Positions 1-30,325 of a stretch of 64,000 bases of DNA are shown piece by piece. Made by a program: the position numbers and the translations under genes. Source of the DNA: Diphasiastrum complanatum (taxonomy: Eukaryota > Streptophyta > Lycopodiopsida > Lycopodiales > Lycopodiaceae). The stretch lies in the NCBI GenBank assembly GCA_029204225.1, contig CM055095.1:70965957-71029956 (forward strand), written 5' to 3'. The notes under the pieces are model-generated. The model did no database searches. It saw only the letters and a program-made list of their open reading frames with translations, and had not been told where the DNA came from. Numbering within the stretch: the first letter of the stretch is position 1; every line of letters starts with the position of its first letter.

Positions 1-1760
1 AAGGCTCAAGTGCTCCAACAATCAAGAAGAAGATGGCCGAGGAGCAAGATCTTGGTTTTGAGGAGGAGCTCATGGAGGAGCAAGCACCAAACCCACCTAT
101 CACTCCAAGGAGATCTTCAAGGGCAAAAGTGGAGCCATCAAGGCTCACATATCAAGGCAAAGGACAGCAAGTTGAGGGTATCTCATCCACTTCTTATGAT
201 TTATCTAGTTTTGAAGAACCATCTAATGTTGAAGATGCATTGAACTCCAAAGAATGGTATAAAGCTATGTTGGATGAGTATGATGCCTTGATTGAGAATG
301 AAACTTGGTTGCTTGTTGAGAGACCTCAAAGGAATGTAATAGGATGCAAGTGGGTCTTCAAGCTTAAGTTGAATGCAAATGGGAATGTTAACAAACATAA
401 AGCAAGATTAGTTGCAAAAGGTTATGCTCAAGAGAGAGGGATAGACTATGAGGAAACTTTTGCACCCGTGGCCAAGATGGTCACAATAAGACTAATCATT
501 GCATTTGCATCACATTTTGGATGGATTCTATGTCAAATGGATGTCTCTAATGCTTTCTTGAATGGTTTTTTGGAAGAGAATATCTATATGGAGCAGCCAC
601 AAGGGTTCATCAAGCATGGAATGGAGAACAAAGTATGCCATCTCCAAAGAAGCATCTATGGCTTGAAGCAAGCCTCGAGATCTTGGAATTCAAGACTACA
701 TTGCTATCTTATTTCACTTTCTTTTGTTCAAAGTGAATATGATCCCACTCTTTACATTAAGTTTGATGATGTTGGTATTGTACTTTTACTCATTTATGTA
801 GATGACATCATCATTAGTGGAAATAGTGTTGATGGTATTGAAAAAATCAAGATAGATCTATCCTTAGAGTTCAAGATGGTAGATCTAGGGTGTCTTCACT
901 TCATCTTAGGCATAGAAGTACTTAGAGGGTCTGATTTTATCTTTATAAGTCAAGTAAACTATGCTCAAAGTCTTTTGAAGAAGTTTAAAATGGAAGTATG
1001 CAAAAGTGTTGACACACCAATGGAGCAAGATGTAAAAGTGCCAAATGAAGATGATGAAAGATCCTTCATGGACATCACTTTGTTTAGGAAACTTATAGGT
1101 TCCTTAATGTGGATCACTATAACTAGACCAGATCTTAGCCTTAGTGTATGTAGGTTGAGCCAATCCATGCAAAAGCCATTGAATATCCATTGGAAAAAGA
1201 CTAAGAGGATTCTAAGATACATCTCGGGTACATTGGATTTTGGGATTCTATATAGAGGAGATGTGATTAACCTTCATGCATTTAGTGATTCAGATTTTGC
1301 AGGGGACAAGAGGGATAGGAAATCAACAAGTGCCTATTCAACTTTCATAGGAGAAGGTGTGGTTTCATGGCTTTCAAAAAAGCAAGAAACTATATCTCTA
1401 TCTTCAACCGAGGCCGAGTACAAAGCTTTGACAACCACTACAAAGGAGGTACTTTGGATCAAGAGATTATTGGTGGAACTAAAGATCATGGATTCAGAGG
1501 AGGCACCAATCATATACAATGACAATATATCAGCCCAACACCTTGCATCTAACCCAATCTTCCATGCAAGATCTAAGCACATTGAGATATGCCATCACTT
1601 TGTGAGAGAAATGGTGCAAGCCAAGGAGATTGCTTTGGAGCATGTTCCAAGCAATGAATGTGTAGCTGATCTACTTACTAAACCAATTCAAAAGACACCT
1701 TTTATGAAGTTCAGATCATCACTTGGAGTGATTAGTAAAGCAATGATTGAACCAAGCTAG
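1..1760 (+). CDS. Ty1/copia pol, C-terminal part (reverse transcriptase + RNase H), cut by window edge
   Basis: The frame is open from the window edge and ends at a TAG after ...AMIEPS. Domains in order are a linker rich in acidic residues and RRSSRAK, the reverse transcriptase (KARLVAKGYAQ, DYEETFAPVAK, QMDVSNAFLNG, catalytic IYVDD) and the RNase H (SDSDFAGD, LSSTEAEY, KHIEICHHFVRE, ADLLTKP). This half of pol copies retroelement RNA into DNA inside cytoplasmic particles. The start of the polyprotein (gag, protease, integrase) lies outside the window. The first 40 bases are identical to 4201-4240 in the next copy, so both copies belong to one family. No stop or frameshift is seen in the visible part. 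Family identity is certain; activity is unknown. Confidence 0.95.
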   Translation, partial: GSSAPTIKKKMAEEQDLGFEEELMEEQAPNPPITPRRSSRAKVEPSRLTYQGKGQQVEGISSTSYDLSSFEEPSNVEDALNSKEWYKAMLDEYDALIENETWLLVERPQRNVIGCKWVFKLKLNANGNVNKHKARLVAKGYAQERGIDYEETFAPVAKMVTIRLIIAFASHFGWILCQMDVSNAFLNGFLEENIYMEQPQGFIKHGMENKVCHLQRSIYGLKQASRSWNSRLHCYLISLSFVQSEYDPTLYIKFDDVGIVLLLIYVDDIIISGNSVDGIEKIKIDLSLEFKMVDLGCLHFILGIEVLRGSDFIFISQVNYAQSLLKKFKMEVCKSVDTPMEQDVKVPNEDDERSFMDITLFRKLIGSLMWITITRPDLSLSVCRLSQSMQKPLNIHWKKTKRILRYISGTLDFGILYRGDVINLHAFSDSDFAGDKRDRKSTSAYSTFIGEGVVSWLSKKQETISLSSTEAEYKALTTTTKEVLWIKRLLVELKIMDSEEAPIIYNDNISAQHLASNPIFHARSKHIEICHHFVREMVQAKEIALEHVPSNECVADLLTKPIQKTPFMKFRSSLGVISKAMIEPS

Positions 1761-1771
1761 ATAGTGAGGAG

Positions 1772-2159
1772 TCTTAAAAATTCACAATTCTAGCTTGACT
1801 AGTTTTGGTCATATGACTTGTAAATAGTTAGATGGTCATGATGTGGCTTGTCACACGTGCCAAATAACATAGGATTCCATTCATAAGGATGTTCTCAAGT
1901 AGACCTAAGTGTTAGAACCTTTGGAATGAGTCCAAATTATGCTTAGATACAAGGGAGAAAAAATAGGAGCTATTTTTGGTAATTTTTGCATTGTTGAGGC
2001 ATCTCCAAGATTCTAATCCTAACTTGGTAGGGATGAGAGATCCACCAAAATTAGCATTGGGGATAGGTTTAGGGCTACTCATACCTGCCCAAAACCATGA
2101 TGGATCATGTATATATAGGTGATGATATCTCACCAAAATCAATCAAGGAATTTCATGTT
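1772..2159 (+). mobile_element. Truncated copia LTR (family A), fused to gag of next copy
   Basis: This matches the first ~390 bases of the complete LTR at 5193-5874, including the stretch with a tatatata box near 2110. Its 5' end is mutated (TCTTAAAA where the other copy has TGTTAAAA). Homology stops abruptly after TTTCATGTT at about 2159, where gag coding sequence begins. The remaining ~290 bp of LTR, the primer site and the gag start are all missing. The junction shares ATGTT between LTR and gag, which suggests microhomology-driven recombination. Confidence 0.85.
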
Positions 2160-4244
2160 GCAAATGAACTCTTAAGAATGAATACTTGCATAAAAATGAA
2201 TGTTGCAAATGAACTCTTAAGAGAGGTAGGAGATTGCACTTCAGGTCAAGATGCTTGGGAGAATTTGCAAAAGGTCTATGAATCCAAGAACCAAACTAGA
2301 ATGTTAGCTTTGAATAATCAAATCTATAGAAGCTATCAAAAGAAAAGAGAGAGTGCACATACTTTTGTCCTGAGAGTAAAGGAATTGAACAAAGAGCTAG
2401 CCTTTATAGGTGATCCTATCAAGGATGAAGAGCTTGTTCAACTCATATTGAATGGACTAAGCTTTGAATTTGACAATTTGGTTCAGGGATATGCAATTAT
2501 GGGTAAGCTACCCATACTTGAAGAACTTCAAGGCACACTCATGGCCGAGGAATCAAGAAGGAGCCAAATGCAAGAGAGGATGGATAGGCTTTCCATCCAA
2601 GGTGGAGATGACCAAGCTCTCTTCACCAAAGGCAAAGGCAAGTCCAAAGGCAAAGGATCAACATTCAAGAAGTCTACAAAGCTTGAGGATCAAGAAGGAC
2701 CCCCAAAGGCATCTCCATCAACCACCAAAGTCAAGAAGGACAAATCAAAGGTGAAGTGCTACTATTGTAGCAAGATGGGGCATTATGCCTCGGAATGCTT
2801 CAAGAGGAAGCAAGATCAAAGCCAAGCCAGCATGAGCAAAGAGGAGGAGGAGGAGAGTTCACATGAGGACTCTCTCATGATGTCCATATTTTCTTCAACA
2901 AGCTTCAAAGGAGAAGATCCTTGGTGGATTGACTCGGGTGCTAGTTCACACATGACTAGTAAAAGGGAGTTTTTCTCTTCTCTCTTATCTTATGATGGAC
3001 CTATAAAGTCTATCTATACAGCAAATGATGAAGCTTGTAAGATTGAAGGAGTTGGTAGCATTCCCCTTTGCTTAGGATCTTCCAAAAAGATCAACATAGA
3101 AGGTGTTTTGTACATTCCTACAATAACAAAGAATCTACTAAGTGTTGGCCAAATGGTAGACAATGGTTTCAATGTTGACTTTGCTTCAAATGAATGTTTC
3201 ATCAAGAAGAAGGGTAAGATAGTGGCTAAGGGCACTAGACTTGGCAAACTTTATAAGTTGGATGCATTTGTGGATACTAATGTTGTCATGTTGGCCGAGA
3301 AGAGCAAGATATCTACTTTTACTTTATGGCACAAAAGACTTGGACATGTCAACTCGGGTTCCATGGAGGCTATGATCAAGGAGGAGTATGATTTAGGCCT
3401 ACCAAGGTCTATTGGGAAGGAAGACAAGGTTTGTGAAGCTTGTGCCTTATCCAAGGCACATAAGAAGGTGTTTCCTAACTCCATCACAAAGTCATCTCAT
3501 CCTCTTGAACTCATACACTCGTATGTGCACATTGCTAGCACCAAATCTAATGGAGGTTCATCCATGTTTTTAACCTTCATTGATGACTACTCAAGATATT
3601 GTTGGGTGTTCTTACTTTCCCTCAAGTCTCAAGTATTTGATACTTTTGTAAAGTTCAAGTTGTTTGTGGAAAAGCATCATAATCATAGCATCAAGATTCT
3701 TAGAAGTGACAATGGTGGAGAATTTATCTCCAATGAGTTCAAGGCCTTTTGTGAGAAGGAAGGGATCAAGAAAGAGACTTCTTGTCCTTACACTCCTCAA
3801 CAAAATGGAGTTGCTGAAAGAAGGAATAGAACATTATGTGAATGTTCTAAGGCTTTAAGATTAGATGCTTGTTTGCCCAAATCCTTTTGGGGTGAGTCTC
3901 TTGTATGTGCAAACTACTTGATGAATAGGGTGTCTTGCAAAGCCATTGAAGGCAAAACTCCTTATGAGATGTTGTATGGAAAGAAACCCAATCTTAATCA
4001 CTTGAAAGTTTTTGGGTGTATATGTTATGTGCATGTGCCATTGGAAACAAGAACCAAGGAGGATCCATCTTCCACAAGAGGGATCATGCTTGGATATGCA
4101 AGCTCAAGCAAGGGCTACAAAGTCTATCTCCCATCCTTGAACAAATTTGTTGTTTCAAGGGATGTCATCTTTGATGAACATCATATGCATATGCTTGAAG
4201 AAGGCTCAAGTGCTCCAACAATCAAGAAGAAGATGGCCGAATAG
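2097..4244 (+). CDS. Ty1/copia gag-protease-integrase ORF, chimeric N-terminus, catalytic Asp lost
   Basis: The 715-codon frame opens inside the truncated LTR, so its first ~20 residues are LTR-derived and not a natural gag start. Then come the gag helical domain, a CCHC zinc knuckle (CYYCSKMGHYASEC), the protease motif WWIDSGAS, the pre-integrase HHCC region (LWHKRLGH, CEAC) and the integrase core (RSDNGGEF, NGVAERRNR). Where copia integrases have IHSDVH this copy has IHSYVH; the codon at 3522-3524 is TAT. The first residue of the DDE triad is therefore changed and the enzyme should be dead. The frame ends early because a deletion at 4240/4241 removes the linker and the front of the reverse transcriptase. 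This is a defective copy. Confidence 0.93.
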   Translation: MMDHVYIGDDISPKSIKEFHVANELLRMNTCIKMNVANELLREVGDCTSGQDAWENLQKVYESKNQTRMLALNNQIYRSYQKKRESAHTFVLRVKELNKELAFIGDPIKDEELVQLILNGLSFEFDNLVQGYAIMGKLPILEELQGTLMAEESRRSQMQERMDRLSIQGGDDQALFTKGKGKSKGKGSTFKKSTKLEDQEGPPKASPSTTKVKKDKSKVKCYYCSKMGHYASECFKRKQDQSQASMSKEEEEESSHEDSLMMSIFSSTSFKGEDPWWIDSGASSHMTSKREFFSSLLSYDGPIKSIYTANDEACKIEGVGSIPLCLGSSKKINIEGVLYIPTITKNLLSVGQMVDNGFNVDFASNECFIKKKGKIVAKGTRLGKLYKLDAFVDTNVVMLAEKSKISTFTLWHKRLGHVNSGSMEAMIKEEYDLGLPRSIGKEDKVCEACALSKAHKKVFPNSITKSSHPLELIHSYVHIASTKSNGGSSMFLTFIDDYSRYCWVFLLSLKSQVFDTFVKFKLFVEKHHNHSIKILRSDNGGEFISNEFKAFCEKEGIKKETSCPYTPQQNGVAERRNRTLCECSKALRLDACLPKSFWGESLVCANYLMNRVSCKAIEGKTPYEMLYGKKPNLNHLKVFGCICYVHVPLETRTKEDPSSTRGIMLGYASSSKGYKVYLPSLNKFVVSRDVIFDEHHMHMLEEGSSAPTIKKKMAE
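2157..2222 (+). repeat. In-frame 45-bp direct duplication at LTR/gag junction
   Basis: The 21-base stretch coding VANELLR occurs at 2157-2177 and again at 2202-2222, offset by 45 bases (15 codons), so the frame is kept. It sits exactly where LTR sequence meets gag and looks like a by-product of the junction-forming event. Confidence 0.8.
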
Positions 4245-5178
4245 TGTTGATGGTATTGAAAAAATCAAGATAGATCTATCCTTAGAGTTCAAGATGGTAG
4301 ATCTAGGGTGTCTTCACTTCATCTTAGGCATAGAAGTACTTAGAGGGTCTGATTTTATCTTTATAAGTCAAGTAAACTATGCTCAAAGTCTTTTGAAGAA
4401 GTTTAAGATGGAAGTATGCAAAAGTGTTGACACACCAATGGAGCAAGATGTAAAAGTGCCAAATGAAGATGATGAAAGATCCTTCATGGACATCACTTTG
4501 TTTAGGCAACTTATAGGTTCCTTAATGTGGATCACTATAACTAGACCAGATCTTAGATTTAGTGTATGTAGGTTGAGCCAATCCATGCAAAAGCCATTGA
4601 ATATCCATTGGAAAAAGGCTAAGAGGATTCTAAGATACATCTCAGGTACATTGGATTTTGGGATTCTATATAGAGGAGATGTGATTAACCTTCATGCATT
4701 TAGTGATTCAGATTTTGCAGGGGACAAGAGGGATAGGAAATCAACAAGTGCCTATTCAACTTTCATAGGAGAAGGTGTGGTTTCATGGCTTTCAAAAAAG
4801 CAAGAAACTATATCTCTATCTTCAACTGAGGCCGAGTACAAAGCTTTGACAACCACTACAAAGGAGGTACTTTGGATCAAGAGATTATTGGTGGAACTAA
4901 AGATCATGGATTCAGAGGAGGCACCAATCATCTACAATGACAATATATCAGCCCAACACCTTGCATCTAACCCAATCTTCCATGCAAGATCTAAGCACAT
5001 TGAGATATGCCATCACTTTGTGAGAGAAATGGTGCAAGCCAAGGAGATTGCTTTGGAGCATGTTCCAAGCAATGAATGTGTAGCTGATCTACTTACTAAA
5101 CCACTTCAAAAGACACCTTTTATGAAGTTCAGATCATCACTTGGAGTGATTAGTAAAGCAATGATTGAACCAAGCTAG
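4241..5178 (+). pseudogene. Ty1/copia pol remainder: RT thumb and RNase H, catalytic RT core deleted
   Basis: Sequence from 4241 onward matches 823-1760 of the upstream copy almost base for base, ending in the same ...AMIEPS stop. About 780 bp present upstream at 41-821, including the YVDD reverse transcriptase site, are missing here. The deletion also shifts the frame relative to the gag-integrase ORF before it. The RNase H part (SDSDFAGD, LSSTEAEY, KHIEICHHF, ADLLTKP) is intact. This copy cannot make a working reverse transcriptase and would depend on another copy. Confidence 0.92.
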
Positions 5179-10549: not shown

Positions 10550-11878
10550 CTATGTTGACTTGAACATGGGTCTTGGTATTACTCCAAGATTGGCTCTACG
10601 CTTGATGAAGGAACTCTTGCTCAAAGGTTTGGTAAGCAAATCTGCAATACAAGATGATGTGTCGATGTGCTCCAAGTAGATTTCCCCTCCAATGAGCTTC
10701 TCTCTCATGAAGTGATGTGCAACTTTAACATGTTTGCTCCTTGCATGAAATATCGGATTGTTGGCAAGGGCTTGGGCTGAAATGTTGTCATACATGATCA
10801 TAGGTAGATCATCTTCCATGATTATCTTTAGCTCCACTAGCAAGCTCTTGATCCAAAGCACTTCCTTTGTTGTTGTAGTGAGTGCTTTATACTCAGCTTC
10901 ACAAGATGAAAGTGATACAGTATCTTGCTTTTTGGAAAGCCAAGATATCAAGTTTCCTCCAAGATATATGGCATACGCACTTGTAGATTTTTTATCTGCT
11001 CTATCACTTGCAAAATCCGAGTCAGAATAGCCAACTATAGAAAGATCTTCACTTTTATACAACAAACCATAATCAAAAGTTGAAGATATGTATCTAAGCA
11101 CTCTTTTGGACATTTTCGAATGATGAATAGTAGGATTTTGCATAGCTTGACTCAACTTATGAACACTAAAACTTATGTCAGGTCTAGTTATTGTGAGCCA
11201 AATTAAGGAGCCTATAAGACTCCTAAAAAGGGTGATGTCCACGAAGGATCTTTCATCATCTTTGTTAGGGTCTTTTACAATTTGCTCCATAGGAGTTTCT
11301 ATACTCTTACAATCTAACATATTGAATTTTTTTTAACATTGAAAGAGCATACTTGGATTGACATACAAAAGCTTTATCTTTAAGAAAGTCAATCTCTAAT
11401 ACTAATATGTAGTGAATTTTTCCAAGATCTTGCATCTTGAACTCTTTTCCAAGTGCAATCTTGGTTTCCTCAACTAACTTGATACAACTTCCTGTTAGAA
11501 TGATATCATCAACATAAATAAGAAGGATGACAATATCTTTATCAAAAAACTTGACATACAAGGAAGGATCATAGTTACTAAGATTAAATCCTAGTGACTC
11601 AAGAAAGGTGTTAAGTCGAGAATACCATGACCTTGGAGCTTGCTTTAGTCCATATAGACTTTTAAAGAGCAAGCAAACTTTGTCTTTGTCATGGATGAAC
11701 CCAATAGACTGATCCATATAAAACTCTTCTTCTAGATATCCATTCAAGAATGCATTAGAGACATCTAGCTGAAAAACTTGCCAATTCAAAAAACAAGCAA
11801 TAGAAATTATGATTCTAATTGATACCATCTTTGCAACTGGAGCAAAAGTCTCCTCATAATCAAGTCCATAAAATGACG
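10550..11878 (-). pseudogene. Ty1/copia pol fragment (RT + RNase H), 5'-truncated, one frameshift
   Basis: Reading from 11878 down, homology starts at DYEETFAPVAK and includes QLDVSNAFLNG, the catalytic IYVDDII, RNase H SDSDFASD, LSSCEAEY, KHVKVAHHF and ADLLTKP, ending ...PMFKST. A run of eight Ts at 11327-11334 (As on the coding strand) carries one extra base, splitting the frame between ...MLKK and MLDCKS. Nothing of gag, protease or integrase is present, and the sequence right of 11878 is unrelated. It is a 5'-truncated, dead copy with its LTR at 9750-10532. Confidence 0.92.
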
Positions 11879-12052
11879 AAGTTACACAAGTAGCATATGG
11901 AACAACTAACGATGTAGTTTGATAAAAAAATTGAAGGCCTTGCAGGGAGCTATAGCACCAACTCCAAATCCACTGGAATAAAATCAACTGCAGTACCCCC
12001 GACGAGAGAATGCATGGTGTCCAGTTTGCACCTAGAACCATACTGCAAATGA

Positions 12053-12546: not shown

Positions 12547-14923
12547 ATGGACACTAGTTCAAGAGATGCCAGAAACCTTCAAGAACTATACCTTAAACAA
12601 CGTGGTAATCATGATGCCGCAAGCACAAAGAGAACCCATGAACCAGCGGAACAAGCCTTCCAAGGACCTACGTGGACCCAACCCATGAATCTAGCTGAGC
12701 CAAGTGAAGAAGAGAAAATCGTGCATGTGGGAGAACAGCTGACACCCACTCAATTTACAAGGCTACGCGCATTATTGGTGGAATACAAAGATTGCTTTGC
12801 ATGGAACTGTGAAAAATGTAAAAATAAGCTTGGTAGAGGCCAAAAATCATGTATATAGGATGATTACACATGTGTGGAGCCTGTTCCCACATGTGAAAAT
12901 AGTGTACTTGTCATGTACCATAATCATATAGGTTGTACATATGATTTAATTAAAGTTCTAGTGGCTAAAAAGGTCAAAAACTAGTTTTCTAGACATATGA
13001 CACATGGCATCAATCTATTGATTGCATGAGCCACATCCTTTGGTTAGGTGTCATATCCCATGTGTAGAGGACAGCTCACATGTGTGGAATAAGCTGAAGT
13101 AGGCAAATTTTGACTTCTAGAAGATATTCAAGTAGATCTCCATATAGAAGGAAAATGGACCAAAAGTGCTCAAAATAGGTTTTGTCCAAGTGTCAGTTTT
13201 GCATGATGAATCATCATATGACAAAGCACCTTCACACATGTGGGATCAGAGGGATGATCAGTACCACGAGCTCCCACTTATTGTATATATAGAGCCACAT
13301 TTGGCCATAATCAGAGTGAGACACCAATCTTGGTTTTGGAAGCAATTTTGAGTGATTCTCTCCATTTGTCTACATTTGTTTTGATTGTTTTGAGATTCTA
13401 TCAATGTGTACTTGATTTTCAGGTTGGAGTCCATACTCAGACAATGTTTCACACGTGTGAAACCAGAAAGTACACCTTCCTTCAATTAATGATTGTTCTT
13501 GTTAGGATTTTGTGTCTAGAATTGATCTAGATTGATCTTAATCTCAAGTAGATTGATAGATCAAGTAATCTGACAACCAATCCCTCTTGAGGATCAATTT
13601 ATGATCCACTCTTGGTCTTTTTTGTACTTTTTTTACAGGAACTACAAGGATCTTAAGGGTATACCACCAACAGTAGTCCAACATACCATACCCTTGGTGG
13701 ATGGAGCAGTCCCCGAGGTGAGTCGATACTATTGCTGAAGTCCTAACTACGCGAAATTGATCAAACAGGAGTTGCAAAAGTTACTAGATGCCGATTTCAT
13801 TTATGAAATTGAGCACACAGAATGGGTATCACCGATAGTCATAGTACCCGAAAAGAATGCAAATATGTGTGAACCTGAAAGCATCAAATGCAATTACCAA
13901 GAAGGATCATTTTCCCTTAGCATTTACGAAAAAAGTATTCTAGACAAAGTAGCAGGAGCAGAAGCCTACAGTTTTCTGGACGGTTTCAGCAGCTACAATC
14001 AAGTGAAAATAGCGCCGCAAGATCAACACAAGATAGCATTCTCTACTAAATGGGAAACCTATGCCTACAAAGTGATGTTGTTTGAACTTTGTAATGCCCC
14101 AAGTACCTCCCAACGAGTTATGCGGGCGGCATTCAAAGAGTGTTTGCAAATTTTTTTGGAAATCTTCCTAGATGATCTGTGCATGCATGAAACTAACTCT
14201 GGGCACTTATCCAATTTGAAAAAGGTGCTAACGAAATGCTGTGAATATCAGATATCCTTGAACCCAGAAAAGTGTCAGTTTTGGGTGAAACATGGCCTCA
14301 TTCTCGGCCATATAGTATCCAAACACGGGATCACCACAGACCTATCAAAGATAAGGATCATTGTTGATCTACCAGCACCAGGAACAATCCGCAGAGTCTA
14401 CATATTTATGGGTCATGCTAACTACTACCGGATTTTCATTCTAGATTTTGCGGAATTAGCACGACCAATCTACAAGCTCACAATGGAACCACATTGGACG
14501 GAGGAGGCCCTACAGGCTTTTCAGAAACTAAAAGATGCTTTGCTCTCAGCACCAATATTACATCCACCCAATTGGTCCATAGAGTTTCATGTGCATACAG
14601 ACGCATCCAAGTATGCAATAGGAGCAATTTTAACCCAACCAAAACACAAAAAGGATTTCCCAATCCAATTTGCTAGCCGACAGCTCAGTGATTCAGAGAT
14701 AAACTATTCGACCGTAGAGCGGGAGGCACTGGCTATGATTTATGTAGTTAAAAAAATTTAGCATTATTTGATGGCCACACATTTCGCTTTTTACACGGAC
14801 CGTCAACCCTTGCTTTATCTTGTTAATAAAACTTGCAACACAAAGAGAATCACCCGTTGGTTACTAAAGAAGGTTTGGTACCTGTCCAAATTTCGAATGG
14901 TGTTTTGTCTCAGAGATCTTTAG
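12547..14923 (+). pseudogene. Ty3/gypsy reverse transcriptase-RNase H, split by a solo LTR
   Basis: The frame 12547-12807 encodes VHVGEQLTPTQFTRLRALLVEYKDCFAWN. After the LTR it resumes at 13643 with YKDLKGIPP. Further on are the RT motifs EWVSPIVIVPEKN, FSSYNQVKIAPQDQHKIAFST, the catalytic FLDDL and HGLILGHIVSKHGI, then RNase H (HTDASKYAIGAIL, YSTVEREALAMIY). An in-frame stop at 14759-14761 is followed by more RNase H (HYLMATHFAFYTDRQPL) to about 14923; another stop lies near 13737. The lineage resembles plant Tat-type elements. It no longer encodes a working protein. Confidence 0.9.
12808..13637 (+). mobile_element. Solo copia LTR, family C, with perfect 5-bp target duplication
   Basis: It begins TGTGAAAAATG and ends TTTTTTTACA. 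The flanks are GGAAC at 12803-12807 and GGAAC at 13638-13642. Removing the LTR and one GGAAC restores the gypsy frame exactly (AWN-YKDLKG). TATA-like tatatata lies near 13280 and the palindrome TTTCACACGTGTGAAA at 13447-13462, in the same order as in the family A LTR, which sets the strand. Confidence 0.93.
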
Positions 14924-17486: not shown

Positions 17487-20400
17487 TTACTCCTTTTTTA
17501 GCGCAGTTAGACGAGAACGTTGTGCTTCCTCTCTTGGAAGTGTCTCAAACGTCCAGTCCCATAGCGTAGAGGTAATACCAAACGCATCGGTTTGCACTTT
17601 GAAATGGTGGTTCAGGTGGTATCTCTGCAAGAAATAGTAACAAACCAATCATAACACAAGCCACACCTCAAAGGGAGCACAATAACAGTAGTAAGATCTC
17701 AAATCCAATTCATGCTAGTGCCAAAAGGATCAACAGCCAAATATTACTTTACAGGTCTCATATCTGCATTAATTACAAGTATCGGACTGATACTTGAAAT
17801 TTAACTAATTAATTGGAAGACTACACAATATATGTCTAAAATGAGGGCTGATGCACATCGTTGCTTCATCTTCCATTGTTGTAAAAGGATAAGCCACCGT
17901 TTCGACTTAACATCCTTGGCATTTTCTGGATTCTGTTGTGCAGTCTACACATGATTAACCTACGAATACTTTGAGTCGTGTAAATATTTAAGTTTGAACG
18001 CAAGGTTTTCAGGGAATTTATGACTATCTACATGTTACTCGCAGTTGGAAAAGTCCTGTTTCTTTTGACAATATGCAAAAGACCTGGTAGAAGATGCTTA
18101 GTGTGTTTCTCAGCCTGAAAAAATTCATAATGGTCAGGAAAGTTATTGATTCAGATCTAAAGATTAGATCTGGATATTTGGTAATGACAACAGATGGAAA
18201 TTTAATTGTTGAGGGTGTATGAAAATGTCTACAAAGTAAGGGAAAATTGACATGGAGTATATTCAAGTCATTGTGAAAATTCTTGAGCTGGTACATTTTG
18301 ACATCTATAGTCCCTTAAGTCCTATTTCAATAGGAAAACGTAGATGTTTTATCTCATCACCTTATCAAGGCCGGAAACTCGTAAATACTTCATGAAGTAC
18401 AAATTTAAAGGATGGAGAAGGCTAAAATATTTATAGGTTGTGAGGACAAGCAAATATCAAAATATTGAGAGATAGTGGTGCTGAATACAATCATACAACA
18501 CTACAAAGAGAGTAGAGCCTCTGCAGTCTGTAGTATGTACTTAACATCCATACCCAAACGCATAGCAGTTCAATTTTAAAGAGGCTTAGTCCTCAGAAGT
18601 ATACTAAAAGCCAATTAGTCAAGATGCTCACCTTTAAGTATCGAGAGTAGTTGTTGGAGGCAACTCCAAAATGAAGATAATAATGTGTTAGATCATATAT
18701 AACGTATGCGAATAAGCCACCGCCAAACATTGCCGATTTGAAGGTGTACGTGGCAATAAGGTCTGCCGTGAACCAAATCTGGAATTGCGGGATACCGAAA
18801 CATTATATTCCGAACATCATCAAGGTGAAAGATATCTCAGCTTCATCAGCAACAAATATAGAAAACATTCCGTTACATTATTACAATTTCGAGAAAAGAG
18901 TTTCCTTTTATGGCTTTTATAATGCACTGAAAAGCGTCATTTGAGCAAAAGATCACGTACCAAGAGTACAAAAACTGCAGTAAATGCAGGAGGGAAAACA
19001 AGGCGACTACCGTCCATTGGATGCTTATGATGGAATCCATGCAAAAGATAATGCAATGTGTTCGCCCTGTTCCAAATGGCATGATGTGTCAAAGGAAACG
19101 AACTAAAATTGCTAGCCGTGAGGTAGCTAACGAGGACTACAAACAATGCAGGCGTTGCACGGATTGATGTTATAGTTGTTTAGCTACTTAACGACCCTTT
19201 GATAATTTAATGATGTCAAATGGCAACTCACCAATAGCTTCTGGTTTTCATATGGAATAGGAAACGATGAATCAAATACTCAAGTAATGTCCAAACCAGA
19301 GCGCCAGAAAGCATTAAGAAGATCAGGAAAAGAAAGCTGTAGCCAGCTTTCACAGCAGTAGATTCCATCCAGAAGACGAAGGGAAGCCATACGATTGGAA
19401 TTATCCACCATTTCGTAGTCGTCAAAAGCTGCTCATTAAAACGCGCCAAACAGAACACATGAGAGTCGCCAAAGATCATTCATTGAGCTACCGAGATTCA
19501 AAGCATTTCATTTGAGACTTAGATATAGAAAGATCAACAACGCCAGAAAGTAAATGCTGCTTTCACCTCTGCAACATCACTCTGGAAGAACCTCGGAGGT
19601 TCATTGCAAACGAGCGGATCATGAATCCAAGCTTGATACCTTTCTCCCAAATTTCCGACCTGAAAATAATTTCCAATTATGACTTACAAAACTCGGAGAC
19701 TGGTGACAAGTTCTAAGAAATAGGACACCTAATCAGGGAAACAAACAACACTATAGCTTTTGCTTGCAAATTGTACCTGAAACACCAAGGGCTTTGTGAG
19801 ATCTACTTCGAAATTTGTTGATGATATACTTGAAGAGTGGGGCTTCAAATTGTTGGTTGATCCCTTCTCGTCATCCCTGGAAAACAATACCTTAGTAGAG
19901 CTGCGAAATTTCTAAGTCTTAAACGAAGGAAGACTTTACGCTCTCATAACATTTCCACGAGTAGACTTGATGACGTGAAAGGTAAGCTTATGTCAAATAT
20001 TCCCAAAAAGGTCAAATTATTTTGCGCGAACGATTACAAGTAAATCTACGTGCTCCAAGTGAATACAATCAGGATACAACCTTCACAGAGTGCTATGATA
20101 TGGCGTATGCTTATTAGTAAAGGTAAGAAAACTTCGAATAGTTCGTCAGTCTAGTTAAGCTACTTACAAAGGTAATCACCCAATCAAGCTATCTTTTATC
20201 ATCTGGGGATAACAAATCTCTAATATTTGATAGCTTCCTTTCCACGATAAAGAAATACCAGTAGACATATTGAGCAGCTTGATCACCTGTACGCACTCTC
20301 CACGGTGCCAATCATGAACTGGCTCAGCATTCGAAAAGCAGCTTGACTATGAAAATGAGCTTCGGGATGACTGGAGCCTCTCATCAGTTCACCCAGATCA

Positions 20401-21056
20401 GCTTGACTGATATGTTCAAAAATTATCTGCAGCCATAAACGAAAGTATCACTGGAACTGAGCCTTGGAATGAAGTCTTGGACTACAAAGTTTGAAAAATC
20501 TCCCTCTTTCTCTCCTCTCCCAAATTATTCATTAACTCACTCGGTTCAAATTCCTTATGCCGAAGTTAGAGAAACCGACATAAGGTGGACAGATTAAATC
20601 TATAGAACATCGCATTTATATAACGCGTTCTTTTCGAAATCGGTTCAGGATGGAAATAGCATTTTCATTTTTCCATAGTGTCTAAACATTCTTGCTTACC
20701 TCTGCACCACCAGGATGAATATCTACAAACTCAGTAATGTTGTAAACTTTTCCATCCACAACAATCCATGCATCTTCCGGACTATTATGTTTATGAATCT
20801 CCGAAGTAGTGAATGTTTCAACAGCTTCTTTAGACTTTGGCGTGCCATTCTGAGAAACGACTAATTCGCTGTTCGTTTCCGTTTCCTTCATTATAATTCC
20901 AGGAACAACGCCACAGGCAGCTCTTAAATCAGAAGCTGCAACTATGTCGCAATTGCATCGAGTATGGCGATCAGGAGCAATCCGCAGCAACGATGACAGT
21001 CCCGAGGAAGCGACCATAGCTCGCAGCAACGAGGACACCCTGGAAGAAGAAACCAT
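17487..21056 (-). CDS. Cytochrome b5-fused fatty acid 2-hydroxylase, 8 exons, intact
   Basis: Exons: 21056-20700, 20426-20287, 19876-19777, 19659-19567, 19428-19232, 19066-18961, 18778-18632, 17624-17487. All introns are GT..AG and phases join to 425 codons. The enzyme family adds a 2-hydroxyl group to (sphingolipid) fatty acids at the ER, taking electrons from cytochrome b5. Residues ~90-166 are a b5 domain (AWIVVDGKVYNITEF, heme ligands H114 in HPGG and probably H145 in HFHS). The hydroxylase domain follows: VDLTKPLVFQVGNLGE, membrane segments, and di-iron histidine clusters HRFLFH (284-289), HYLLHGFHHKH (301-311), HYYLH (363-367), RYHLNHH (381-387). The start is uncertain: Met at 20889-20891 would give 370 aa, close to animal and yeast family members. 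Arabidopsis homologues lack the b5 domain. Confidence 0.93.
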
Positions 21057-26344: not shown

Positions 26345-29300
26345 CTAACTTGGCAAATCTAGTGTACATCTATCTACAATTCCAAGAGCATATCTTAACT
26401 TAAAAAATGGATCTTTGGACAATGGTTTGGTTAAGATATCAGCTATGCATTCGGATGATGGTACATGATGTAGTTGCACTTCCTTGGATTGTACCTTCTC
26501 CCTCACAAAGTGGTGAGCTATCTCAATATGCTTTGTTCTAGCATGGAAGATAGGATTTGAAGCAATTTGTTGAGAAGCTTGATTGTCACAAAATATGTAA
26601 GGGATCTCCTCGGCCTCTAGCACATGTAGTTCCATCAAGAGTCTTCTTAGCCATAAGAGCTCTTTGGTTGTTGAAGTCAATGCCTTGTACTCGGCTTCAC
26701 AAGAAGATAGTGAGATTGTATCTTGCTTTTTGGAAAGCCAAGATATCACTCCTCCACAAAGAAATGTTGCAAATGCACTAATGGACTTCCTATCCATCTT
26801 GTCACCTGCAAAATCTGAATCCGAGTAGGCTCTCAAGTGCAAGTTAGATCCTTCATAAAGTATACCAAAAAATCTAGTACTAGAAACATATCTAAGTACT
26901 CTCTTGGCACTTTTCCAATGATGAATTAAAGGAGCCTGCATACTTTGACTCAACTTGCTTACACAAAAACTTAAGTCAGGTCTAGTGATGGTTAAATAGA
27001 TTAGAGAGCCTATAAGCTTCCTAAAGAGAGTGATGTCCTCAAAGGATGCTTCATCACCTTCATTAGTTGCTTTCACAACATGCTCCATAGGGGTGTCAAT
27101 CCCCTTACAATCTTTCATACCAAATCTTTCAAGAATGGAAGTAGCATACTTAGATTGACTTATGAAAGTACAATTGCTACTTCTAGACACTTCTATCCCA
27201 AGTATAAACTTTAGGAAGCCTAGATCTACCATCTTGAACTCACTAGATAAGTCAACTTTTACTTTGCCTATGCCATCATCATCATTTCCTGTCATAATGA
27301 TGTCATCAACATAAAGAACCAAAATGATGATCTTTCCTTCATTACATTTGAAATATAAAGAAGGTTCATAAGCACTTAGTACAAAGCCAAGAGAATAGAG
27401 AAAATCATGCAACCTAGAGTACCAAGCTCTAGGTGCTTGCTTCAAGCCATATAGGCTCTTCCTTAAGTAGCACACCTTTTGCTCCTCACCAATCTTGATG
27501 AAGCCCTCGGGTTGCATCATGTAGATTTCCTCTTCTAAGAAGCCATTCAAGAAGGCATTTGTCACATCCATTTGGTAGAGATCCCATTTGAACAAAGTAG
27601 CAATGCAAATGATTAATCTAATAGTTACAAGCTTAGCTACAGGTGCAAATGTTTCTTCATAATCCAATCCTTTTATTTGAAGAAATCCCTTAGCAACAAG
27701 CCTAGCTTTGTATTTACTAATAGATCCATCTTGATTGTACTTAATTCTATAAATCCACTTACATGCAAGTGGTTTCTTTCCTCTTGGAAGATTTACAAGA
27801 TTCCAAGTATGATTTTCTTCTAATGCATCATACTCTACTTGCATTGCATCTCTCCAAACTTTAGATTTACATGCTTCTTCAAAAGATGATGGTTCTTCAA
27901 TCAATGTAGCTAAAAAAGAGTAAGAGGTAGAAGATGTAGAGCCTTCCTTTTGCTTTCCCTTGTCCACATAGGTAAGCCTTGAGGGCTCGGCCTTGCTCCT
28001 TGATGATCTTCTTGGCCCCTTTTGACTTGGATCCAAATCTCCATCCTTGGGTTTGTCATGATCCTCCTCGGGTTTGTCAAGATCCTCCTCGGATTTGTCA
28101 AGATCTTCAATGCACAATGGGTTAGATCCATTTGACAAGCTCTTAGCAAATTGTGACTCATCAAAAAGTACATCCTTGCTTACCTTTACTTTCTTGGATG
28201 TAGGATCATATATCCTATATCCCTTGCTATTTTCTCCATAGCCAACAAAGATTCCTTTGAAGGAGGTAGCATCTTCTTTCCTTCTAGTCTCCAAAGGAAT
28301 GTGTACATAACAAGTACATCCAAAGATCTTAAAATATTTTACATTGGGTTTCTTATCAAACAAGGCTTGATAAGGTGAGATCCCATCTATAGCACTACTA
28401 GGAAGTCTATTACATAAATAATTAGCACATGTTATGGCTTCTCCCCAAAATGAGATGGGAAGTGATGCATCAAGCCTCAAGGACTTTGCACACTCACATA
28501 GACTCCTATTTTTCCTCTCGGCCACCCCATTTTGTTGAGGGGTGTAGGAACAAGTGTATTGTAACTTAATACCATTGATCTCACAAAAGTCTTTCATTTT
28601 ATTGGAGGTGTACTCTCCTCCATTATCACATCTTAGTGCTTTGATAGAAGTACTAAGTTGTTTCTCTACTAGAGACTTGAACTTAATGAAAGCTTCATAA
28701 ACAAGATTTTTCTTTGATAGTAACTCAATCCATGTGAATCTAGTACAATCATCTATAAAAGTTACATACATCAAGGCACCTCCATTACTTGCATGTGAAA
28801 AACTATGTACATCAGAATGTATGAGATCCAAGGGAGAGAGAGATCTTGATGAAGATTTCTTGTAAGAAGATTTGTGTGACTTTGCAAGGCCACATGCCTC
28901 ACACATTTTTCCACACTTCTTGAAAGCTCTTGGTAGGCCGAGAGCTAGTTCCTTGCTTGCCATTGACTCCATAGATTGAAGATTAGGATGGCCTAATCTC
29001 TTATGCCAAAGCTCCACTTGAGTTAGCTCCTCCCTAGCCAAGTTCACACTTTCACTTGCAACATTAGCATCCAACTTGAAAAGTCTCCCTTGCTTAATGC
29101 CACTAGCTATGCACTTATCATTTTTCAAGATGGAACAAACTCCATTCTTGAAATGTACATCTAGTCCATTGTCCATTAATTGTCCTACACTAAGCAAGTT
29201 TCTTGAAATGGTAGGAACATACAAAACATTATCTAGATCTATCCTTTTAGATGTGCCTAAACAAAGAGGTATAGATCCTATGCCATCTATCTTGCATGCT

Positions 29301-30325
29301 TGATCACTAGCAGTGTATATTGACTTCTTAGAGTCATTACAAGATAGAAGAGTAGAAAAATAATGCTTGTTAAAGGACATGTGGGAACTAGCCCCACTAT
29401 CTATCCACCATGTGTCTTGACTTGAAGTTGGTGTAGATGCAACCATTAAGGATGTGTTGAATCCATCCTCATATTCTTCCTCTTGAGCAATGTTCCCTTG
29501 ATCTCCTTTGGCTTGTTGATTCTTCTTCAAGTAGCATTCTGAGGCAAAGTGTCCTTTCTTTCCACAAAAGAAACACTTTAGTTTTGCCTTGTTCTTCACT
29601 TTGCCTTTGGAGGTAGATCCTCCATTCTTCATCTCGGCCTCCTTGCCTTGATTTTTCTTGGATGGATTTTGCTTTTTCTTGCCTTTAGATGTAAAGTTAG
29701 CTTTCTCCTCTCCTCCATTAAGTGACATGCTATCCATTCTTGTCTTGAGGTGTAGAAGCCTACTCTCCTCGGCCACAAGAACATTGTGCAACTTTTCAAT
29801 GGATGGAAGAGAGTCTTGAATGGCAAATGATTGGACTAAGTTGGTAAACTCATCACTTAGACCATTCAAAATGATTTGTACTAGTTCTTGATCTTGGATC
29901 TTCTCTCCTATTGCACTTAACTCCTTGTTAAGAGATTTGATCCTAAGAACATACTCTTGTCCACTCTCTCCACTTCCTTTCATGCTTTGGAAAACTTGAT
30001 TTCTTAGCATGAGGATTCTTGAAGTATTGTTGGATTCATAAATGCTCTTTAATGAATCCCAAGCCTCTTTGGATGAGGTACAAGAAGACACCTCTTTCAA
30101 GAGGTCATTGCATACATTTAACTTTATGCAATGTAGAGCTAATCTTGCTCTCTTCTTGTATTTGGCTTGTTCTTGGGGAGTTTGAGGCTCTTCCTCTACT
30201 CCTTGAACTATGTCATATAGATCATGGATCACTAGGAGTGATTCCATTCTCACTTTCCAAATGGAATAATTTGTGGAAGTGAGTCTCTCACTTGATTCCA
30301 TCAAATATCCACCCATGGATGACAT
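26345..30325 (-). CDS. Intact copia Gag-Pol polyprotein, 1326 aa
   Basis: Gag occupies about residues 1-245, followed by a CCHC knuckle (C251, C254, H259, C264). The protease motif WIDSGAS has D309. The pre-integrase zinc site comprises H441, H446, C475 and C478. The integrase triad is D505, D567, E603 with canonical spacings of 61 and 35. An acidic linker (about 740-765, repeats of DLDKxEE) precedes the reverse transcriptase, with D920 and YVDD at 1005-1008. RNase H has SDSDFAGD (~1168-1175), SSCEAEY and a terminal ADILTKP. No stop, frameshift or missing catalytic residue is seen. The Met chosen opens MSSMGGYLMESSERLTSTNY, the usual copia gag start. It is expected to assemble particles and integrate its own cDNA. 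Confidence 0.97.
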   Translation of the reverse strand: MSSMGGYLMESSERLTSTNYSIWKVRMESLLVIHDLYDIVQGVEEEPQTPQEQAKYKKRARLALHCIKLNVCNDLLKEVSSCTSSKEAWDSLKSIYESNNTSRILMLRNQVFQSMKGSGESGQEYVLRIKSLNKELSAIGEKIQDQELVQIILNGLSDEFTNLVQSFAIQDSLPSIEKLHNVLVAEESRLLHLKTRMDSMSLNGGEEKANFTSKGKKKQNPSKKNQGKEAEMKNGGSTSKGKVKNKAKLKCFFCGKKGHFASECYLKKNQQAKGDQGNIAQEEEYEDGFNTSLMVASTPTSSQDTWWIDSGASSHMSFNKHYFSTLLSCNDSKKSIYTASDQACKIDGIGSIPLCLGTSKRIDLDNVLYVPTISRNLLSVGQLMDNGLDVHFKNGVCSILKNDKCIASGIKQGRLFKLDANVASESVNLAREELTQVELWHKRLGHPNLQSMESMASKELALGLPRAFKKCGKMCEACGLAKSHKSSYKKSSSRSLSPLDLIHSDVHSFSHASNGGALMYVTFIDDCTRFTWIELLSKKNLVYEAFIKFKSLVEKQLSTSIKALRCDNGGEYTSNKMKDFCEINGIKLQYTCSYTPQQNGVAERKNRSLCECAKSLRLDASLPISFWGEAITCANYLCNRLPSSAIDGISPYQALFDKKPNVKYFKIFGCTCYVHIPLETRRKEDATSFKGIFVGYGENSKGYRIYDPTSKKVKVSKDVLFDESQFAKSLSNGSNPLCIEDLDKSEEDLDKPEEDHDKPKDGDLDPSQKGPRRSSRSKAEPSRLTYVDKGKQKEGSTSSTSYSFLATLIEEPSSFEEACKSKVWRDAMQVEYDALEENHTWNLVNLPRGKKPLACKWIYRIKYNQDGSISKYKARLVAKGFLQIKGLDYEETFAPVAKLVTIRLIICIATLFKWDLYQMDVTNAFLNGFLEEEIYMMQPEGFIKIGEEQKVCYLRKSLYGLKQAPRAWYSRLHDFLYSLGFVLSAYEPSLYFKCNEGKIIILVLYVDDIIMTGNDDDGIGKVKVDLSSEFKMVDLGFLKFILGIEVSRSSNCTFISQSKYATSILERFGMKDCKGIDTPMEHVVKATNEGDEASFEDITLFRKLIGSLIYLTITRPDLSFCVSKLSQSMQAPLIHHWKSAKRVLRYVSSTRFFGILYEGSNLHLRAYSDSDFAGDKMDRKSISAFATFLCGGVISWLSKKQDTISLSSCEAEYKALTSTTKELLWLRRLLMELHVLEAEEIPYIFCDNQASQQIASNPIFHARTKHIEIAHHFVREKVQSKEVQLHHVPSSECIADILTKPLSKDPFFKLRYALGIVDRCTLDLPS

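Follow-up and report, generated by a model that had tools for sequence, protein, structure and literature searches.

Fused and unfused fatty acid 2-hydroxylase genes in the genome of the lycophyte Diphasiastrum complanatum

Do all plant fatty acid 2-hydroxylases lack a cytochrome b5 domain of their own? The yeast and animal enzymes carry the domain, whereas Arabidopsis FAH1 and FAH2 consist of the hydroxylase domain only, a contrast drawn in an earlier note on this locus and borne out by PMC2738916. The same paper describes the b5-like part of the human enzyme as essential and suggests that Arabidopsis FAH may work as part of a complex that also contains free b5 and Bax inhibitor-1 (PMC2738916). 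A review describes plant fatty acid 2-hydroxylases as being without a b5 domain (PMC10002949). Here we analyzed a stretch of 64,000 nucleotides (the window) in which the earlier note had described a plant gene with both domains, and asked where such a gene could have come from.

A b5-hydroxylase gene in the window

The window gene (gene A) runs on the minus strand from 21056 to 17487. Our splice model resolved it into 8 exons that join in phase, in agreement with the earlier note, with outer ends at 17487 and 21056 and a single frame of 1278 nt encoding 425 residues plus a stop. The residues are counted from Met 1, with Met 1, 14, and 56 as candidate starts. All seven introns (273, 410, 117, 138, 165, 182, and 1007 bases, in order) are GT-AG, and the exon end phases are 0,2,0,0,2,0,0.

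Exons of gene A (splice model; Pfam also for exons 1 and 2):
Exon 1, 20700..21056, minus strand: leader (residues 1-82) and first half of the b5 domain, up to HPGGAE
Exon 2, 20287..20426, minus strand: second half of the b5 domain, with the HxHS second heme-histidine region; end phase 2
Exon 3, 19777..19876, minus strand: linker and start of the hydroxylase (VDLTKPLVFQ); without an in-frame ATG
Exon 4, 19567..19659, minus strand: hydroxylase, VGNLGERYQAWIHDP
Exon 5, 19232..19428, minus strand: hydroxylase, histidine motif 1, HRFLFH
Exon 6, 18961..19066, minus strand: hydroxylase, histidine motif 2, HGFHHKHP
Exon 7, 18632..18778, minus strand: hydroxylase, histidine motif 3, HYYLHF
Exon 8, 17487..17624, minus strand: hydroxylase, histidine motif 4, YHLNHH, then the stop codon

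Both domains exceeded their Pfam cut-offs: Cyt-b5 at residues 83-161 (58.3 bits; cut-off, 23.7 bits) and FA_hydroxylase at residues 270-408 (53.6 bits; cut-off, 31 bits). A search of NCBIfam returned no family for protein A or for the unfused protein E described below. The b5 domain is divided over exons 1 and 2, with the break directly after HPGGAE; its HPGG lies at 114 and its HxHS ends on the histidine at 145, and His 114 and His 145 are the predicted axial heme ligands. Enzymes of the SCS7/FA2H type have four transmembrane segments; in protein A, hydropathy peaks by a simple scan lay at 247, 270, and 327, with a further peak at 47, within the leader. The leader opens with a 13-residue tandem repeat (window 20979-21056, minus strand; MVSSSRVSSLLRA / MVASSGLSSLLRI, 28/39 bases alike) that is absent from the two paralogs described below, genes B and C. 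The leaders of all three genes have in common an SL motif and a start resembling MVSS, although they are less constrained than the domains. Elsewhere in the window, we recognized by eye, from their motifs, Copia-type retrotransposon frames at 33-5178, 10550-12041, and 26345-30325 (the third is open over 1326 residues) and a separate reverse-transcriptase-like frame at 13757-14761.

Among 59 solved sequences, the best match to protein A was yeast SCS7 (E 1.6e-50), in two stretches covering both the b5 part (41.5 bits) and the hydroxylase part (136.6 bits). Together with the Pfam domains, this match sustained the reading of the earlier note that an HPGG-type cytochrome b5 is fused to a histidine-cluster hydroxylase. 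SCS7 (Fah1p; ceramide very-long-chain fatty acid 2-hydroxylase; PDB 4zr0/4zr1) likewise has an N-terminal b5 with HxHS and a C-terminal hydroxylase. We take its metal ligands to be histidines 244, 249, 268, 271, 272, 326, 330, 345, 348, and 349, and all ten aligned histidines are kept in protein A. The hydroxylase parts are 38.8% identical, the third motif is HYYLHF in A and HFFLHH in SCS7, and A, unlike SCS7, has an 82-residue leader ahead of its b5. At the column of SCS7 residue 331, protein A and human FA2H have phenylalanine, whereas yeast and Arabidopsis FAH1 have histidine; since 331 lies outside this ligand list, the phenylalanine need not impair activity.

The human FA2H, AtFAH1, AtFAH2, bovine b5, and Arabidopsis CB5-E sequences used throughout are provisional rather than database sequences, and the identities and tree rows that involve them carry the same caveat. 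Human FA2H has the same architecture as A, the same HYYLHF third motif, and HxHS in its b5; its hydroxylase part is 43.5% identical, and its leader is not as long as that of A. Closest among the compared hydroxylases outside the plant's own genome were Arabidopsis FAH1 and FAH2 (53.0% and 55.2% to A). Unlike A, these proteins have no b5 domain and use separate CB5 proteins (PMC9539407, PMC2738916). Their third motif, HYxLHH, differs from the HYYLHF of A, B, and C and is matched by the HYFLHH of E.

Three fused genes and one unfused gene

We searched the plant's own 1.74-Gb assembly of 5176 contigs, in which C1-C23 are of chromosome size (42.5-101.6 Mb; C24 drops to 10.9 Mb) and the window lies on contig C4. 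A genome search for the cytochrome b5 family gave 57 matches, and reading some of these loci revealed two further full genes, B and C. Protein searches of the whole genome, one with the window hydroxylase as query and one with AtFAH2, gave at least 24 matches each, all confined to four loci (A, B, C, and the unfused gene E) and a copy of gene C. The count of three fused genes and one unfused gene is a lower bound drawn from these protein searches.

2-Hydroxylase genes outside the window:
Gene B, contig C1 near 82.40 Mb: fused b5-hydroxylase, eight exons
Gene C, contig C21 near 7.05 Mb: fused b5-hydroxylase, eight exons
Gene E, C4:29909582-29931909 (first to last exon): unfused FAH, 243 residues

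Proteins B and C carry both Pfam domains, and each of the three fused genes consists of eight exons whose end phases are 0,2,0,0,2,0,0. Hydroxylase identity was 183/221 for A-B, 143/221 for A-C, and 144/221 for B-C. Between A and B, we obtained dN 0.18 and dS 0.57 for the b5 part and dN 0.10 and dS 0.60 for the hydroxylase part; synonymous change was large or saturated in the pairs with gene C. Because dN is far below dS in both parts, both domains are, by this comparison, kept by purifying selection between A and B. The copy of gene C, on the 41.8-kb contig C3577, differs from it by two bases in the coding sequence and may be a second haplotype that the assembly has retained.

An adjacent free b5 gene and a hydroxylase gene that were wrongly joined, or a decayed copy, could in principle produce a similar picture, and retention of intron 2 would indeed stop the frame directly past the b5 of gene A. 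We regard this explanation as very improbable. The hydroxylase of gene A has no start of its own, because no in-frame ATG occurs in exon 3, and past the junction no Met is reached until residue 251, within the hydroxylase. The end phase 2 of exon 2 is matched by exon 3, gene A shows no premature stop or broken splice site, and selection on both parts speaks against decay. Chance joining is excluded because two paralogous loci repeat the layout with identical phases. Chance or mis-joined exons were rejected on the phase-matched layout in three loci and the missing start codon, and gene A is confirmed, at the level of its sequence, as a real b5-hydroxylase fusion in a plant genome.

Loci of other kinds also came to light. 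On contig C1, 19 partial b5 matches are spread over about 1.5 Mb (C1:65129601-66660963); 18 of the 19 cover profile positions 2-30, and 16 of these 18 sit in open frames of 97-101 residues. We describe this cluster as local b5-like genes or pseudogenes. Locus L001 holds a frame (610-1929) with Pfam b5, FAD-binding, and NAD-binding domains, which we take to resemble the C-terminal part of plant nitrate reductase. At L003, a single open frame (1417-2823) carries Pfam b5 and fatty acid desaturase domains and presumably resembles a front-end or sphingolipid Delta8 desaturase.

Gene E has the FA_hydroxylase domain only (Pfam) and Arabidopsis-like motifs (HGCHHKHP and HYFLHH). Its exon 1 is MSSQKIVGDDLYSNMDFTVDLKKPLVFQ, followed by an intron 1 of about 20.8 kb; this exon corresponds to exon 3 of the fused genes and has an ATG within the linker. 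In site and phase, the five introns of gene E coincide with the final five of each fused gene. By pairwise identity (58.1% to AtFAH1, 57.3% to A, and 56.8% to AtFAH2), gene E does not clearly group with Arabidopsis. Neither the 12.4 kb upstream of gene E, read in forward frames, nor its intron 1 contained an HPGG motif, and none of the 57 genome b5 matches lies near it (those on C4 are at 19.7, 61.9, and 71.0 Mb). In that search, the first b5 exons of A, B, C, and the C copy reached 49.7-53.8 bits, and a b5 exon of this kind near gene E should therefore have shown. These data suggest that gene E has no b5 of the A/B/C kind, although a b5 exon that is more distant or more diverged could in theory have escaped notice. 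A PF04116 scan of the genome gave 28 matches; among the 20 given as loci L077-L096 there was no FA2H-type gene, with just five weak hits (E 0.11 or worse), and gene C and its C3577 copy were among the remaining eight, two of which were read. That scan is not exhaustive, because it missed A, B, and E, in which the domain is split among exons.

The lack of a b5 domain typical of Arabidopsis FAH is thus seen in gene E and not in gene A, and by sequence, fused and unfused 2-hydroxylases coexist in one genome. The earlier note had proposed that a plant gene with the fusion would mark either the ancestral state, lost in flowering plants, or a lineage-specific gain. The fusion in a plant gene stood, whereas the either/or itself did not, since the coexisting gene E points to two paralogous lines. 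Gene A cannot be read just as the plant FAH gene that still bears its b5, because the same genome has the unfused Arabidopsis-like gene E; by these comparisons, gene A belongs to a paralogous line of three members beside the unfused one.

Origin of the fused line

How did the two lines arise? The most likely reading of the sequences is that the fused form is an inherited one that disappeared along the line to Arabidopsis. An ancestral fused enzyme would already have been present before plants, animals, and fungi split. From it, before the lycophyte and seed plant lineages diverged, the unfused FAH would have formed as both b5 exons dropped out and what had been the linker exon gained a new start codon. 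Later, the line to Arabidopsis would have lost its fused paralog. We consider it probable that this whole course of events holds and that gene A encodes a self-contained enzyme of the SCS7/FA2H type.

Motif comparison bears on the age of the fusion. HxHS was present in 5/5 FA2H-type b5 domains (A, B, C, yeast, and human) and in 0/5 other b5s (bovine b5, Arabidopsis CB5-E, L001, L003, and 1cxy), three of the ten rows (human, bovine, and CB5-E) being provisional sequences. An old fusion is therefore favored over a fresh one with a plant b5. Taken alone, the b5 part of A does not point to FA2H by sequence. Among the solved proteins, some free b5s outscored the SCS7 b5 stretch against A (1cxy, 48.7 versus 41.5 bits), and the b5 of A shared 30/91 positions with bovine b5, 32/83 with the nitrate-reductase-like L001, 27/88 with SCS7, and 22/92 with human FA2H.

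The trees, as far as these alignments go, do not decide the order of events, which we infer from shared introns, shared motifs, and parsimony. In the b5 tree, 0/7 branches were starred. In a hydroxylase tree of twelve rows without gene E, the A+B and A+B+C branches were starred and the base of the eukaryotes stayed open; a tree of ten rows including gene E starred 1/7 branches (A+B), with A+B+C at 85/90. In the tree of eight rows (0/5 starred), human FA2H, on a long branch, joined A, B, and C in a single open fork (82/81), so plants as one group were unsupported there. Five, and then two, of nine bacterial loci entered these hydroxylase trees; the nine were read for comparison from 43 bacterial loci that the hydroxylase query matched in the genome_contigs collection, and their longest frame was 283 codons. 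Two loci from bacterial metagenome-assembled genomes, L009 (3469-4065) and L010 (1504-2088), code for hydroxylases of FA2H-like sequence that share 36-41% identity with the plant domain; at 283 and 204 codons, their frames have little room for a b5. Searches with gene A exon 1 of genome_contigs gave 396 pattern stretches and 0 relatives, and a search of viral_contigs gave two pattern stretches and 0 relatives.

Could the fusion instead be young? On this account, an unfused FAH acquired b5 exons during lycophyte or early land plant evolution and then duplicated to give three fused genes. The fused hydroxylases are indeed closer to plant FAHs (49-57% to E and Arabidopsis) than to human or yeast (34-44%), they share five introns with unfused E, the b5 tree does not tie their b5 to that of yeast or human FA2H, and some free b5s are equally near by score or identity. 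A late gain would nevertheless require a second, independent origin of an identical fusion, with the domain order and HxHS of SCS7/FA2H and the HYYLHF of human FA2H, and we consider it unlikely, at about one chance in four to our minds. Far less probable still is that a fused FA2H gene was acquired horizontally, with a fungus or another eukaryote as the donor. The fungal enzyme does have the same architecture, yet the hydroxylase of A is 53-57% identical to plant FAHs versus 39% to yeast SCS7, five introns are held in common with the unfused plant gene E, and the three fused loci are dispersed. Fungal contamination or transfer was rejected as unlikely on the same identities and shared introns. 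Inheritance of an old fusion, with later loss, is the reading we carry forward.

Predicted chemistry and meaning for plant 2-hydroxylases

By analogy with the known enzymes, the NADH-cytochrome b5 reductase of the endoplasmic reticulum (ER) would reduce the tethered N-terminal b5 heme of protein A. The tethered b5 would in turn hand electrons to the di-metal center of the hydroxylase, which would add a hydroxyl at C-2 of the ceramide acyl chain; electron path, substrate, and ER site are all inferred. The product of gene E would have to borrow a free b5. The chemistry expected of protein A is the ordinary sphingolipid 2-hydroxylation of yeast and animals, as outlined in PMC10002949.

In the part of the literature covered, we found no fused b5-FA2H reported for a land plant. 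This is no proof that the fusion is unpublished, and genome annotations may well list these proteins. The fused architecture itself is already known from yeast and animals; what stands out is that fused and unfused lines occur side by side. As a tentative extension, which we hold as possible rather than probable, early vascular plants may have run two parallel 2-hydroxylase systems, one self-sufficient, fused, and independent of free b5, the other unfused and sharing b5, with control as by Bax inhibitor-1 in Arabidopsis. Exactly two b5 exons would have been lost before the lycophyte/seed plant split, and the Arabidopsis line would have dropped the fused enzyme.

The rule that plant 2-hydroxylases are without b5, stated from Arabidopsis work (PMC10002949), does not hold for plants in general, given the three fused genes and one unfused gene found here. 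Because the introns are shared, whether the unfused form came about through exon loss can be examined directly in mosses, algae, and ferns. The fused and unfused pair offers a natural comparison for the effect of tethering the electron donor, and it bears on why Arabidopsis links 2-hydroxylation to free b5 and Bax inhibitor-1.
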